34,198 bases of DNA from Pseudomonadota bacterium (GTDB taxonomy: Bacteria > Pseudomonadota > Gammaproteobacteria > Steroidobacterales > Steroidobacteraceae). The position numbers were made by a program, and so were the translations under genes. The stretch lies in assembly GCA_021787615.1 (NCBI GenBank), contig JAJYLP010000033.1:1-34198 (forward strand), read 5' to 3'. Positions 5,607 to 9,591 of the stretch are shown here, piece by piece (within the stretch, counting starts at the first letter, position 1; each line of letters starts with the position of its first letter). The notes beneath the pieces were generated by a model that did not search any database, had not been told where the DNA came from, and worked only from the letters and a program-made list of their open reading frames with translations.

Positions 5607-5864
5607 ATGCGGGCGCGGTTCCTCCGCATCGCCGAGCTCCTCGAGCCCTTCGGGCCGCAGACGGTGGGCATGCCGCACGTGCGCCCGCTCGAGCGCAAGC
5701 TCTGGCAGATGCGCATGCATGGCCGGGACGGCGCCGCGCGAGCGGTGTATGCCGCCGCCCAGGGGCGATCGCTCCGCGCGCTGCACGTCTTCGTGAAGAA
5801 GACGCAGGCGATACCGCGAAGCGCCATCGAGACGGCCCTGAAGCGACTGGAGAGCGTGAAGTGA
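5607..5864 (+). CDS. HigB/phage Gp49-like RelE-family toxin, N-terminus in doubt
   Basis: The 85 residues from ATG 5607 match the family core of Gp49-like HigB toxins: GMPHVRPLERKLWQMRM, GRDGAARAVY, then LHVFVKKTQAIPR and a final helix. Such toxins are ribosome-dependent or free mRNA endonucleases. Family members normally start about 20 residues earlier. In this frame the expected strand and helix are readable upstream (TVRVHPQAQAELKAIPAD). However, no ATG, GTG or TTG lies between that stretch and the in-frame TAG at about 5523. So either translation begins at 5607 and makes an N-truncated protein, a non-standard start is used, or a mutation removed the start. The stop overlaps the antitoxin GTG by 4 bases. 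Confidence 0.7.
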   Translation: MRARFLRIAELLEPFGPQTVGMPHVRPLERKLWQMRMHGRDGAARAVYAAAQGRSLRALHVFVKKTQAIPRSAIETALKRLESVK

Positions 5865-6151
5865 AGACCTTGAAGATCCTGAAGCGGGAACTCCTCCGCG
5901 ACCAGCGGACGGCGCGGGCCCATGCGGACCTCGCTGAGGAGTTCGATGTTGCCCGAGCCCTCATCGATGCGCGCGTCCGCGCGGGGCTCTCTCAGATCGA
6001 GGTCGCCGAGCGCACGGGCGCCACGCAGAGCGTCGTCGCGCGCCTCGAGGGCGGCCGGCGGCCGCCCTCGATGAGAACCGTCGAGCGGTTCGCCCGCGCG
6101 GTGGGCGGCAGGCTGATTGTCCGCATCGAGCCTGCGAGAGCGGCTCCGTAG
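5861..6151 (+). CDS. Xre/HigA-type antitoxin
   Basis: The 96-residue product has a helix-turn-helix of the Xre/Cro type at about 41-65 (AGLSQIEVAERTGATQSVVARLEGG read in two parts: AGLSQIEVAERTG and ATQSVVARLEGG). The preceding helical region is typical of HigA antitoxins (HADLAEEFDVARALI). It should bind and neutralise the HigB-like toxin and repress the operon through its DNA-binding domain. GTG 5861 overlaps the toxin TGA by 4 bases, implying translational coupling. The toxin-first order is the hallmark of higBA. The 60 bases after it contain no clear terminator. Confidence 0.85.
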   Translation: MKTLKILKRELLRDQRTARAHADLAEEFDVARALIDARVRAGLSQIEVAERTGATQSVVARLEGGRRPPSMRTVERFARAVGGRLIVRIEPARAAP

Positions 6152-6660
6152 ACATCGGGCGCCAAGCGGAAATCGCGCATGCCTCCTGAGTACGTGCTCA
6201 CCCTGGGCTACGCGGCCGACAACGATGTATAGCCCGTTGCTCTGCTCGAGGGCGCACTGAGCTTTGCGAGGATCGCGGCTGCCGCGGTTGTCAACTTGGG
6301 GCCGGTGGATAACGGCTCATCTGACGCCCTCACGCTGCCACTGTTACGTCCAGTTCGGGAGTTCGCGGAGACCTGGTCGAGGCGCATCGCGCACTGACAT
6401 CCGGCATTGCGGATCGGCGTGAAGTGCGCGGCCTCGGCATTGATCCGGCCGCAGACGACGGGCAGAGGTCGCTCGAGCAATTTCGGGCCGGCGCTGAGGG
6501 CCTGCGCGGCCTGAGAGCGCCGCAGGAGTCGCGAGACAAGGAACGGCGCCGCCAACCAGGACCCTGTCTTGCGGGCTAAAGACGCCAGCGCCTGTTTCGA
6601 AGCCTATGTAAGCCACTGATCATAAAGGAGAGTGGTCACCTGCTTGGTAACACCCCGGCG

Positions 6661-6689
6661 AAAAAAGAAGACCCCGCTTGCGCGGGGTC
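6661..6689 (-). terminator. Intrinsic terminator (minus strand)
   Basis: GACCCCGC (6670-6677) and GCGGGGTC (6682-6689) form a perfect 8-bp stem with loop TTGC. On the minus strand it is followed by TTCTTTTTT (6669 down to 6661). There is no T-run on the plus side, so it serves a minus-strand transcript. No minus-strand protein gene lies upstream, which supports an RNA gene. Confidence 0.85.
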
Positions 6690-6838
6690 GGTCGCTTGCT
6701 TGCATCGAGTCGTGCTTCTTGTTTTTTTTGCCTGGCACGGTACGGCATGCGTCTGTGGCGCGCATGCGAGCCCGTGCTTTCTCGTAATTTCCTTGCTGTG
6801 TGGTTCTTCCCCGTCGGACCGCATGACGGCCCCAAGTG
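6661..6838 (-). ncRNA. Candidate sigma-54-dependent structured small RNA
   Basis: Reading the minus strand, a sigma-54-type promoter predicts a 5' end near 6838 and an intrinsic terminator ends the transcript near 6661, giving about 178 nt. The transcript can fold into several stem-loops. One pairs 6811-6815 with 6825-6829 (CCGTC/GACGG). A longer one has a perfect 7-bp inner stem (6745-6751 with 6761-6767), a 4x4 internal loop and a 6-bp outer stem (6735-6740 with 6772-6777). Between this stem and the terminator is an A-rich unpaired stretch, AAAAAAAACAAGAAG, reminiscent of Hfq/Crc-binding motifs of the CrcZ type. No convincing peptide is encoded. It does not match a family I can name. Transcription is inferred, not shown. 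Confidence 0.55.
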
Positions 6839-6849
6839 GGTTATTCGTA

Positions 6850-6865
6850 GCAATACCTATGCCAA
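6850..6865 (-). promoter_or_regulatory. Sigma-54 (RpoN) promoter
   Basis: On the minus strand the sequence TTGGCATAGGTATTGC has GG at -24 and GC at -12 separated by exactly 10 bases. It matches the sigma-54 consensus YTGGCAC-N5-TTGC at all but the last conserved C of the -24 block. Transcription would start near 6838. Confidence 0.6.
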
Positions 6866-6918
6866 CTTGAACTCTCTGGATCGATCGCTCGCTGATCGGC
6901 ACCCGCTCGGCGCATGAA

Positions 6919-6945
6919 TGTGACGTAATGTCCATTGGCGTGACA
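6919..6945. promoter_or_regulatory. Paired activator-site-like repeats
   Basis: TGTGAC (6919-6924) and GTGACA (6940-6945) share GTGAC repeats exactly 20 bases apart, two helical turns. They also form an imperfect inverted pair. Their centre is about 94 bases upstream of the predicted start at 6838, a usual place for enhancer-binding-protein sites of sigma-54 promoters. Identity of the activator is unknown. Confidence 0.4.
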
Positions 6946-7119
6946 TGATTTGGCCTATCCTTCGCGCGAAACCATCTTCCGCTCCCGTTGAGACGCCTCA
7001 AACCGCTGCGAATGTAAAAAACTTCGACGAGTTTAGGGCCTCATCGCGTGCGGAAATGCCGCTGCCCGGTTCATAACGCTCTGAATGTCTTTGCGAATCA
7101 GACCAGCATCGAGGTGTAA

Positions 7120-9591
7120 ATGAAATCGACGGACGGCTCCAGGAAGGCGCCGGGCGTCCTGCGCCTGTTCTGGATGGCTTTGTTCCTGGCATCGGCGGCC
7201 CGCACGCTTGCGGCCGATCGGGCGCTGCCGTGCCCGCCGCCGCTGCGACCCGCAGTCCATTTCTGGATCCGGGTCTACACGCAGATCGACACCGACGCGG
7301 GCTTCCTGCACGACTCGAGCAATCTCGGCGTGGTCTACGAGACGGTGCATTTCACTCCCGACAGCTCGCGCTGGGAACGCCAGCGCCTGGTCGATCGCGA
7401 GCGTGACCGTCTCGTCGCGGAACTGCGCCGTATCGCCGCGGGGGTGCGGCCGCTGACACCCGATGAGAAGCGCATCGTGGCGTTATGGGGGCCGCATGTC
7501 AGCGCCGCACGGCTGCGCGAGGCGGCGGACGATATCCGCTTCCAGCTCGGCCAGGCCAACCGCTTCAAGGCCGGCCTGATCCGCTCAGGTGCATGGCAGG
7601 ATGCGATCGCACGCGCGCTGGCCGCGCGCGGATTGCCCCCCGAGCTGGCCGCGTTGCCGCTGGTGGAGTCTTCCTACAATCCCCGCGCCTACTCCAAGGA
7701 CGGAGCGGCCGGGCTGTGGCAGTTCATGCCCGGCACGGCGCGGCGCTTCCTGCGCATGGGCGCGGCCGTCGATCAGCGGTTCGATCCGTTCAGCGCCACC
7801 GTGGCGGCCGCGCAGCTGCTGGCCTACAACTACCGGATCCTGGGGACGTGGCCGCTGGCCATCACGGCCTATAACCAGGGAGTCGCCGGCATGCTGCGTG
7901 CCGTGCGCGTCATCGGCTCACGCAACATTGCCACCATCGTGCAGCGCTATCACTCCGCCACCTTCGGGTTCGCGTCACGCAACTTCTACGCGTCCTTCCT
8001 CGCCGCGCTGTACGTCGAGCAGCATGCGCAGCGGTTCTTCGGTGATCTGCAGCGCTTGCCGGAGGAGCATTTCCAGGAGGTGACGCTCCCGGGCTACGTC
8101 GCCGTGGCCTCGCTCGAGCGGGCGGCGGGCGTGACTTCCGCCCGGCTGCGCGAGCTCAATCCGGCGCTGCTGCCGTCGGTATGGGACGGCGAGCTGGATG
8201 TGCCGAGGGGATATCGTCTGCGCCTGCCGGCGGGCGGACCCGACTGGACCGTCGCCGCGCTCACCGCGCGGCTCGGTCCGCAGGCGTTGCTCGCGGCGCA
8301 GCTGCGGCCGCCCGTGTACCGGGTGCGCTGGGGCGATACGCTCTCCGGTATCGCGGCGCGCTACCGGCTCAGCCCCTGGACGCTGGCCCGATTCAACGGC
8401 ATGCCGCTCGATGGGATGCTGCGCGCCGGCGAGCGTCTGCGGCTGCCGGGGGCCAGCCAGCCGCCGGCGGTCCTCGCCGCCGCGAGCCTGCCGCCGGGCG
8501 CGAGGCCCGGGACCTACCGGGTGCGTCCCGGGGATACGCTCTCAGGCATTGCGACGCATTACGGGGTGAGCGCAGAGGCTCTGGCGCGGCTCAACGACAT
8601 TCCGGCCAACGGCCTTCTGCGCGTGGGGGAGCCGCTGCATTTGCCGGGCGCCGCGCCGCCGGCGCCGCTCGAGGTCGCGACGGCGACGGCCGCGGTGTTG
8701 CCGGCGCTCTATCGGGTCCGGCCCGACAATACCCTCTCCGGCATTGCCGTGCGCTATGACGTGAGTCCCTGGGCTCTGGCGCGGCTCAACGACATTCCGC
8801 TCGACGGCGTCCTGCGTGTGGGGGAGCCGCTGCGTCTGCCGGGCGCCGCCCAGCCGGCGCGGCTCGCGGCCGTGGCACCGGCCGGCGCGGTGGATGACAT
8901 CCCCGCCGCCGCGCACGCGCTGAGCCCACCGCTCGGCTCGACTCTGGCTGCGAACGCCTCAGGCGCTGCAGTCCCGCTGCCGCCCGCAGCCTCGCGACTG
9001 GCGTCGGGTCCGAACCAGGCGCTGGCGGATGCCGAGGCCGGCGCGCGCGCCGCGCCGCGCCCGGCCGCGGGCGATCCGCAGCCCGTCTCGGCTGGTCAGG
9101 CCGAGGCTCTGGGCCCCATGCTGGGTCCCGAGGGTGAGCCGGCGCGCAGCGTCGACCCCACGGACTACACGGTGGCGCCGAATGGCACGATCCGCGTGGC
9201 GGCCGCCGAGTCGCTCGGCTACTACGCCGAATGGCTGGGCGTCAGCGCCATGGACCTGCGCCGCATCAATCATCTGGCCTTCAGCCAGCCGGTGCGTATC
9301 GGTGAGCGGATCCGGCTGGATTTCCGTTATGTGACGCCCCAGCAGTTCGAGCAGCGGCGCATCGCCTACCATCGGGCCCTGGAAGCGAGCTATTTCGCCA
9401 GCCACCGAATCGACGGCACTCGGACCTACGTGACCCGCAGCGGCGACTCATTGTGGACCCTGACGCAGCGCTTTGCGGGGCTGCCGGCGTGGCTGCTGCG
9501 CCAGTACAACCCCGATACCGATTTCTTCGCGCTGCGGCCCGGGACCCGCCTGGTGATCCCGCGGATCGTGCCGGACCGGGCCGCCGGGTGA
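7120..9591 (+). CDS. MltD-like lytic transglycosylase with five LysM domains
   Basis: The 823-residue product has an N-terminal signal sequence (hydrophobic core about 13-32). It then has an SLT-type lysozyme-like domain at about 170-270 with catalytic Glu183 in LPLVESSYNP, followed by DGAAGLWQFMPGTAR and ITAYNQGVAGM. Three close LysM repeats begin at Tyr400, Tyr466 and Tyr531. Two divergent LysM units begin near 683 and 770, the last containing RSGDSLWTL. A degenerate LysM-like segment may lie at about 325-370. Such enzymes cleave the glycan strand of peptidoglycan to 1,6-anhydro muropeptides in the periplasm; LysM binds GlcNAc-containing strands. It is nearly twice the length of E. coli MltD, mainly from extra LysM units and an Ala/Pro-rich linker (about 580-680). 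An L,D-transpeptidase gene follows. Confidence 0.92.
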   Translation: MKSTDGSRKAPGVLRLFWMALFLASAARTLAADRALPCPPPLRPAVHFWIRVYTQIDTDAGFLHDSSNLGVVYETVHFTPDSSRWERQRLVDRERDRLVAELRRIAAGVRPLTPDEKRIVALWGPHVSAARLREAADDIRFQLGQANRFKAGLIRSGAWQDAIARALAARGLPPELAALPLVESSYNPRAYSKDGAAGLWQFMPGTARRFLRMGAAVDQRFDPFSATVAAAQLLAYNYRILGTWPLAITAYNQGVAGMLRAVRVIGSRNIATIVQRYHSATFGFASRNFYASFLAALYVEQHAQRFFGDLQRLPEEHFQEVTLPGYVAVASLERAAGVTSARLRELNPALLPSVWDGELDVPRGYRLRLPAGGPDWTVAALTARLGPQALLAAQLRPPVYRVRWGDTLSGIAARYRLSPWTLARFNGMPLDGMLRAGERLRLPGASQPPAVLAAASLPPGARPGTYRVRPGDTLSGIATHYGVSAEALARLNDIPANGLLRVGEPLHLPGAAPPAPLEVATATAAVLPALYRVRPDNTLSGIAVRYDVSPWALARLNDIPLDGVLRVGEPLRLPGAAQPARLAAVAPAGAVDDIPAAAHALSPPLGSTLAANASGAAVPLPPAASRLASGPNQALADAEAGARAAPRPAAGDPQPVSAGQAEALGPMLGPEGEPARSVDPTDYTVAPNGTIRVAAAESLGYYAEWLGVSAMDLRRINHLAFSQPVRIGERIRLDFRYVTPQQFEQRRIAYHRALEASYFASHRIDGTRTYVTRSGDSLWTLTQRFAGLPAWLLRQYNPDTDFFALRPGTRLVIPRIVPDRAAG
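8317..8844 (+). repeat. Three near-identical LysM-coding repeats
   Basis: Units starting at 8317, 8515 and 8710 (spacings 198 and 195 bases) encode LysM modules of the form YRVR..DTLSGIA. Units two and three share long identical DNA, for example around 8578-8604 and 8773-8799, coding ALARLNDIP. This suggests a recent in-frame duplication within the transglycosylase gene. Confidence 0.8.

Follow-up and report, generated by a model that had tools for sequence, protein, structure and literature searches.

A predicted sigma-54-dependent small RNA gene conserved beside mltD in Steroidobacteraceae-type bacteria

The minus-strand stretch described here is very probably the gene for a small regulatory RNA (sRNA), switched on via sigma-54 and conserved in environmental bacteria. 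The window, that is the whole stretch of DNA analysed (34,198 nucleotides), is contig C50 of genome G000, which comprises 3.73 Mb in 176 contigs and is 99.7% complete. Sigma-54-dependent sRNA genes are a known kind, of which few are known to the authors, and judged from sequence there is a strong case for a conserved and so far undescribed one. The preferred reading, to which a probability of about 70% is given, is that of a free-standing gene for an Hfq-binding, trans-acting sRNA that would work by base pairing, with a sigma-54 promoter and a working 3' module. A sequence-only reading of this DNA had proposed a sigma-54-dependent sRNA with an unpaired A-rich stretch and a terminator, a central claim that is supported, with the -24/-12 elements kept and no conserved frame found. 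The features are the following:

6661..6838, minus: predicted sRNA of about 178 nt, its start placed from promoter geometry
6919..6924, minus: conserved upstream element GTCACA, likely an activator (enhancer) site, 60 bases 5' of TGGCA
6940..6944, minus: distal GTCAC repeat of the sequence-only reading, not kept in relatives
6849..6864, minus: sigma-54 -24/-12 promoter TGGCATAGGTATTGCT, with GG at 6863-6862 and GC at 6851-6850
6816..6832, minus: hairpin H1, 7 bp, from folding
6735..6777, minus: hairpin H2, two-part stem with 6 bp outer and 7 bp inner, from folding
6715..6729, minus: A-rich tract AAAAAAAACAAGAAG, unpaired in the centroid, candidate Hfq distal-face (ARN) site
6690..6710, minus: candidate seed, ACTCGATG followed by the core CAAGCAAGCGACC, from conservation
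6661..6689, minus: intrinsic terminator, 8-bp stem and T-rich tail, from sequence and folding
7120..9591, plus: divergent mltD-like lytic transglycosylase gene with LysM repeats (Pfam SLT, four LysM stretches)
6636-7001, minus: 121-aa frame with TTG start spanning the region, no Pfam match

The promoter reported for this region, with its exact 10-base GG-GC spacing, is present and conserved in relatives, and from the position of the GG and GC, exactly 10 bases apart, transcription would be expected to start near 6838. A TGGCA-type promoter was found in 63 distinct upstreams, and every one of these reads TGGCA-N6-TTGC, the search pattern requiring TGGCA and not the exact TTGC; the count omits L037 (a degenerate site, none by pattern) as well as L135 and L140, which are cut off. 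In an alignment of 20 loci the TGGCA/TTGCT promoter is invariant and the 3' end is kept, and the window's genome holds 12 TGGCAYN5TTGCW sites versus 3 for the reversed control. The paired GTGAC repeats described upstream are indeed there, as minus-strand GTCAC at 6944-6940 and 6924-6920, 20 bases start to start, but conservation is limited to the promoter-proximal copy (6924-6919), the distal one not being exact in the aligned close relatives L003-L010. Of 61 upstreams, 46 have a GTCACA-type element (GTCACA, GTCATA, ATCACA, GTCGCA or GTTACA) at -59/-60 from TGGCA, exact GTCACA falling between -70 and -48 in 43 of 61 and between -150 and -80 in 1 of 61; the element is likely an activator (enhancer) site. 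A further GTCACA-type element is seen at -28/-29 in 21 of 61 upstreams, about three helical turns from the first, a position not shared by the distal repeat of the window. With regard to membership among sigma-54-dependent sRNA genes, the conserved -24/-12 GG-N10-GC and an upstream activator-type site are both present.

The distribution of the RNA was followed at several depths. With a cut-off of E <= 0.01, BLASTN recovers the stretch from 26 of 60 relatives, the nearest giving long matches with 75-90% identity; in the other relatives the 3' end alone matches, and rows near the cut-off look like chance. Of the 58 genus genomes 46 contain the 13-base core, as do 26 of the 28 good ones (reversed control 5/58), a figure in which G077 counts by a chance match only, its real copy having CAAGCAGGCGACC and being detected by the covariance model. 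This model of the 3' module, built from 43 sequences and used to search 200 family genomes, finds a match at E <= 1e-15 in each of the 28 good genus genomes; its training set included 17 of these loci and not the other 11. Among the matches listed, a gap between 57 and 33 bits parts members from the rest, and members fall in genera g1, g25, g32, g34, g36 and g69 and in G412, labelled g23. A longer core pattern was found across the order in 25 of 296 genomes, all inside the Steroidobacteraceae-type family, and a related pattern, searched in one genome per species over 84,980 species, returned 53 stretches: 48 carry a terminator, namely 45 loci already known plus the new L111, L120 and L135, and the remaining five (L127, L134, L139, L142 and L144) lack promoter and terminator alike. 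Records that share the core are nearly all metagenome genomes (Gammaproteobacteria, Proteobacteria, Steroidobacteraceae). On this pattern the RNA family would be Steroidobacteraceae-type, and within its genus the gene appears to belong to the core set, so that it should control something basic there.

Exact core matches without promoter and terminator were left out as chance (C52 of the window's genome, G013 C49, G063 C105, G064 C15, G008 C138 and G077 C113), and weak model matches below 33 bits in g72 and g20 were left out of the members, those inspected having a different seed and another genomic location. In the Rfam covariance search that had been proposed as a check, no described family reached its gathering score in the window or in 14 loci, the far-below matches of the window having E >= 0.29, in line with the earlier remark that the sequence was not a recognised one. 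Among the matches listed for sigma-54, Steroidobacteraceae or PEP-CTERM sRNAs in open-licence literature, there was no account of this RNA family.

Folding of 6838-6661 returns the stem-loops that had been proposed, namely a 7-bp hairpin and a two-part stem of 6 + 7 bp, together with the 8-bp stem and T-rich tail of the expected intrinsic terminator, and leaves the A-rich stretch (6729-6715) unpaired in the centroid, as anticipated; the folding energy has z = -2.0, with 6 of 200 shuffles as good. In the window's clade (n=18) 93% of cells are paired and most stems barely vary, H1 being paired in 85.7% of cells, with two pairs changed on both sides, and the outer stem of H2 in 100%. In the other clade (n=30) H2 has seven pairs, 87% paired, and shows 42 both-side cells (shuffles 14.1 +/- 3.9) with a covariation score of 0.56 (shuffles 0.29), the structure having been predicted on the same alignment on which covariation was tested; slid versions of the stem reach at most 16 both-side cells and a covariation of 0.24. 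The measures least fooled by relatedness are the counts of pairs with both-side change (6 versus 5.0 shuffled, 153/500 as high) and of further pair types (15 versus 13.3, 78/500 as high), neither of which is above shuffles in that clade; in the window's clade both are likewise within shuffles (238/500 and 125/500 as high). Conservation of the stems with compensatory changes, which the sequence-only reading had suggested looking for, is seen in that the main stem is kept and such changes are present, and the evidence that they offer for the H2 stem may be called moderate, not decisive.

The best conserved part of the RNA is its 3' module, made up of the A-rich tract, CUCCUC or CUCGAUG, CAAGCAAGCGACC and the terminator. 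Among the 43 module sequences CTCCTC is found in 32 and CTCGATG in 11, the anti-SD CUCCUC being missing from the window's own clade, and in the 20 aligned loci an invariant CAAGCAAGCGACCG stands 5' of the C/G-rich terminator, with core and terminator nearly invariant. The A-rich tract contains AAnAAnAA in 32/43 modules; its ARN repeats amount to (ARN)5 in the window, to at least four in a row in 13/43 and to fewer than three in 11/43. Short forms of 82-118 nt (L120, L125, L074 and L203) retain little besides the module, and in L192, of genus g70, promoter, upstream elements and A-rich tract are kept and the seed is different. Such a tract appears to fit the distal face of Hfq, a protein that scores over cut-off in all 28 good genus genomes and in 54 of the 58 overall, and the core looks like a seed.

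It is proposed that an enhancer-binding protein at GTCACA would open the sigma-54 promoter, giving rise to a transcript of about 178 nt that would end at the terminator. The 5' two thirds, with H1 and H2, would be structured and replaceable, and the 3' module would be the working part: the A-rich tract would bind the distal face of Hfq and the U-tail the proximal face, and the single-stranded CUCCUC/CUCGAUG and CAAGCAAGCGACC between them would pair with several mRNAs, in most relatives partly via Shine-Dalgarno-like complementarity. Searches for targets gave no excess. Long complementarity to GTCGCTTGCTTG with at most one mismatch was found at 8 sites in the window's genome versus 12 for the control. 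None of the 58 genus genomes has the seed, SD and ATG pattern GCTTGCTTG-GGAGG-ATG, and the energies of duplexes with pilA leaders were at chance (median z -0.03, n=25); within the window there are 4 complementary runs of at least 10 per strand, including the RNA's own site, shuffles giving 2-7.

An unlikely alternative is that the RNA titrates a protein, in which case the A-rich tract (CrcZ-like, for Hfq/Crc) or the GGAAGGAAG linker (CsrA/RsmA-like) would sequester a translation regulator and the seed would be incidental. The tract is present, with the single AAnAAnAA counted above, and the linker occurs in 15 of 30 second-clade RNAs, GGAAG[GC]AAG in 20 of 30; however, each RNA has one A-rich tract only, the linker is not seen in the short forms or in the 3' UTR form, and the 13-base core, needless for a sponge, is the best conserved part.

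The base-pairing sRNA reading also draws on the surroundings of the gene. Of the 58 member loci, 52 show an mltD-like gene, divergent every time; in five of the six others the upstream sequence is shorter than 260 bases, and the last one, L013 (G003), has mltD about 2.5 kb off, divergent and on the same contig. The layout of locus L169 is ordinary. Seventeen of twenty other mltD loci of the family have no sigma-54 match, and the remaining three (L269 in g31, L271 in g27 and L280 in g19) have an mltD-divergent sigma-54-type promoter and a different short RNA with terminator, the module model matching terminators only, and in the g31 and g27 loci. L269 and L271 have a CTAGGG motif reminiscent of the linker in the RNA studied, for which reason the mltD locus may be older than the module.

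In genus g25 the locus takes another form. At six loci (L075-L079 and L111) the sigma-54 promoter lies 837-861 bases 5' of the core, with a frame of 249-271 aa between promoter and module that is over the Pfam cut-off for PEP-CTERM in 6/6 and matches DUF4114 in 6/6, its stop codon falling where the A-rich tract begins, 26-30 bases 5' of the core. Since the promoter and the module lie on either side of a PEP-CTERM surface-protein gene, the module is by position an mRNA 3' UTR, and it would act as such or be cut from it. This arrangement raises the question of whether the free-standing RNA is a remnant, the leader and 3' UTR that a PEP-CTERM mRNA left behind on losing its frame, with a module that would serve the 3' end of an mRNA (as a stability or terminator element) and be devoid of trans activity. 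In g25 promoter, PEP-CTERM gene and module do form one unit at the same locus, and CCGGATAAC, found around most g25 stop codons, reappears where the A-rich tract begins in several free-standing RNAs, including L015, L021, L057 and L146. Such an origin is nevertheless rather improbable: free-standing forms occur in g34 and in the g1/g32/g36/g69 branches and g25 is one clade, so that one later gain of the frame is simpler, and a mere leftover would be unlikely to retain promoter, upstream element, stem and core genus-wide.

When 41 MltD fragments are placed in a tree, the four from g25 form one clade (100/99) beside sRNA-bearing branches, deep forks being unsettled, and a single gain of the PEP-CTERM frame in g25 is the simplest reading, not a proven one. 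That one orthologous locus carries the same sigma-54-controlled RNA in two ways, free-standing in several genera and as a PEP-CTERM mRNA 3' UTR in one, is an evenly balanced proposition. If true, it would offer a natural record of how an sRNA gene acquired a reading frame and turned into a regulator that is mRNA-borne or has a dual function, and the two forms at one locus would make a testable case for how mRNA-borne sRNAs arise or vanish. As to a small protein or leader peptide, the 121-aa frame does span the region, contrary to the letter of the earlier statement that no protein gene fits, but it has no Pfam family match, the RNAs of 18 relatives (170-185 nt) differ in length out of frame and the ATG 5' of the core is absent from the CTCCTC clade, so that the frame is not a conserved protein gene and this reading, rejected here, is highly improbable.

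CrcZ and CrcY are sigma-54-dependent, the CrcZ gene adjoins cbrAB and Rfam includes a CrcZ family; the promoter type of MgrR and ChiX differs from that of the RNA described here. The CrcZ-like layout once suggested was not borne out, since CrcZ and CrcY have several CA motifs and are under CbrB control, whereas this RNA, of 178 nt, has one A-rich tract, an mltD-side locus (mltD neighbour in 52/58) and 0 Rfam matches (window and 14 loci), and CrcZ family membership is not supported on the same grounds. What it shares with CrcZ and CrcY of Pseudomonas is an A-rich motif of the AAnAAnAA type (PMC3480352). NrsZ of P. aeruginosa is a free-standing RpoN-dependent sRNA (PMC9731577) and is encoded downstream of ntrBC; the RNA described here is likewise free-standing and, by sequence, of the sigma-54 type, kinship being compared through Rfam only, but it adjoins mltD. 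GlnZ of Enterobacteriaceae is described as RpoN- and Hfq-dependent, with a conserved seed, in the 3' UTR of the glnA mRNA (PMC9731577), a situation resembled by the g25 form, whose host gene, unlike glnA, is the PEP-CTERM gene, the form in the window being free-standing. Class II Hfq sRNAs such as MgrR and ChiX have a central single-stranded A-rich, ARN-like tract (PMC6239178), which the (ARN)5 tract predicted to be unpaired in the window's RNA would resemble.

Regarding the activator, PrsK/PrsR came into consideration through the PEP-CTERM link. As the only activator it was rejected, since no PrsR scores over cut-off in 11 of the 28 good genomes that have the RNA, the window's among them; in all, TIGR02915 (PrsR) is over cut-off in 36 of 58 genus genomes. 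PilR may tentatively be put forward as a candidate. An NtrC-type regulator gene adjoins pilA in at least five genomes (G001, G017, G025, G074 and G075), and pilA upstreams have GTGAC...GTCAC pairs whose likeness to the RNA's upstream element is modest and whose spacing is different (7/29 above the 95% background score, 4/29 at p < 0.05, median p 0.13). Other sigma-54-like sites of the window's genome precede, by Pfam, a PEP-CTERM gene (L204), fliL and fliM (L208) and pilA (L211). When ten other sites were scored for the upstream element, L215, which precedes an outer-membrane-like protein without Pfam match, came top (10.1, p 0.03), a score that is unremarkable because ten tests were made. At L206 and L212 (C43 and C95 of the same genome) two copies of TGGCATGGCGCTTGCTTG have near-identical flanks on both sides and are probably a repeat, not promoters.

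Some further observations concern the neighbourhood and other loci. Between the RNA gene and an MFS-like gene the window has a pair resembling a Gp49-like toxin (PF05973) and an HTH antitoxin (5607-6151, plus strand); in L003 and L004, both close relatives, about 60-130 bases separate the MFS match from the RNA core, and the window thus seems to hold an insertion at this pair. G005 (6.9 Mb) has two copies of the RNA gene, L090 and L091, on different contigs and both with promoter and terminator, which may reflect a real duplication or a mixed assembly; L090, which stands outside the member list, has the promoter and scores 65.5 bits with the model. In g72, L190, L191, L193 and L194 are short sigma-54-type units (TGGCA-N6-TTGC, about 200 bases, terminator) that are not beside mltD, often carry a CCGCCGGGGG-type motif and may represent another sRNA family. 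Genus g20 has similar non-coding stretches (L184, L185, L187-L189 and L196), each with an A-rich tract and a terminator at its end; of these, L184, L185 and L188 are flanked, as judged by eye, by a histidine-kinase-like frame and a small lipoprotein-like frame.
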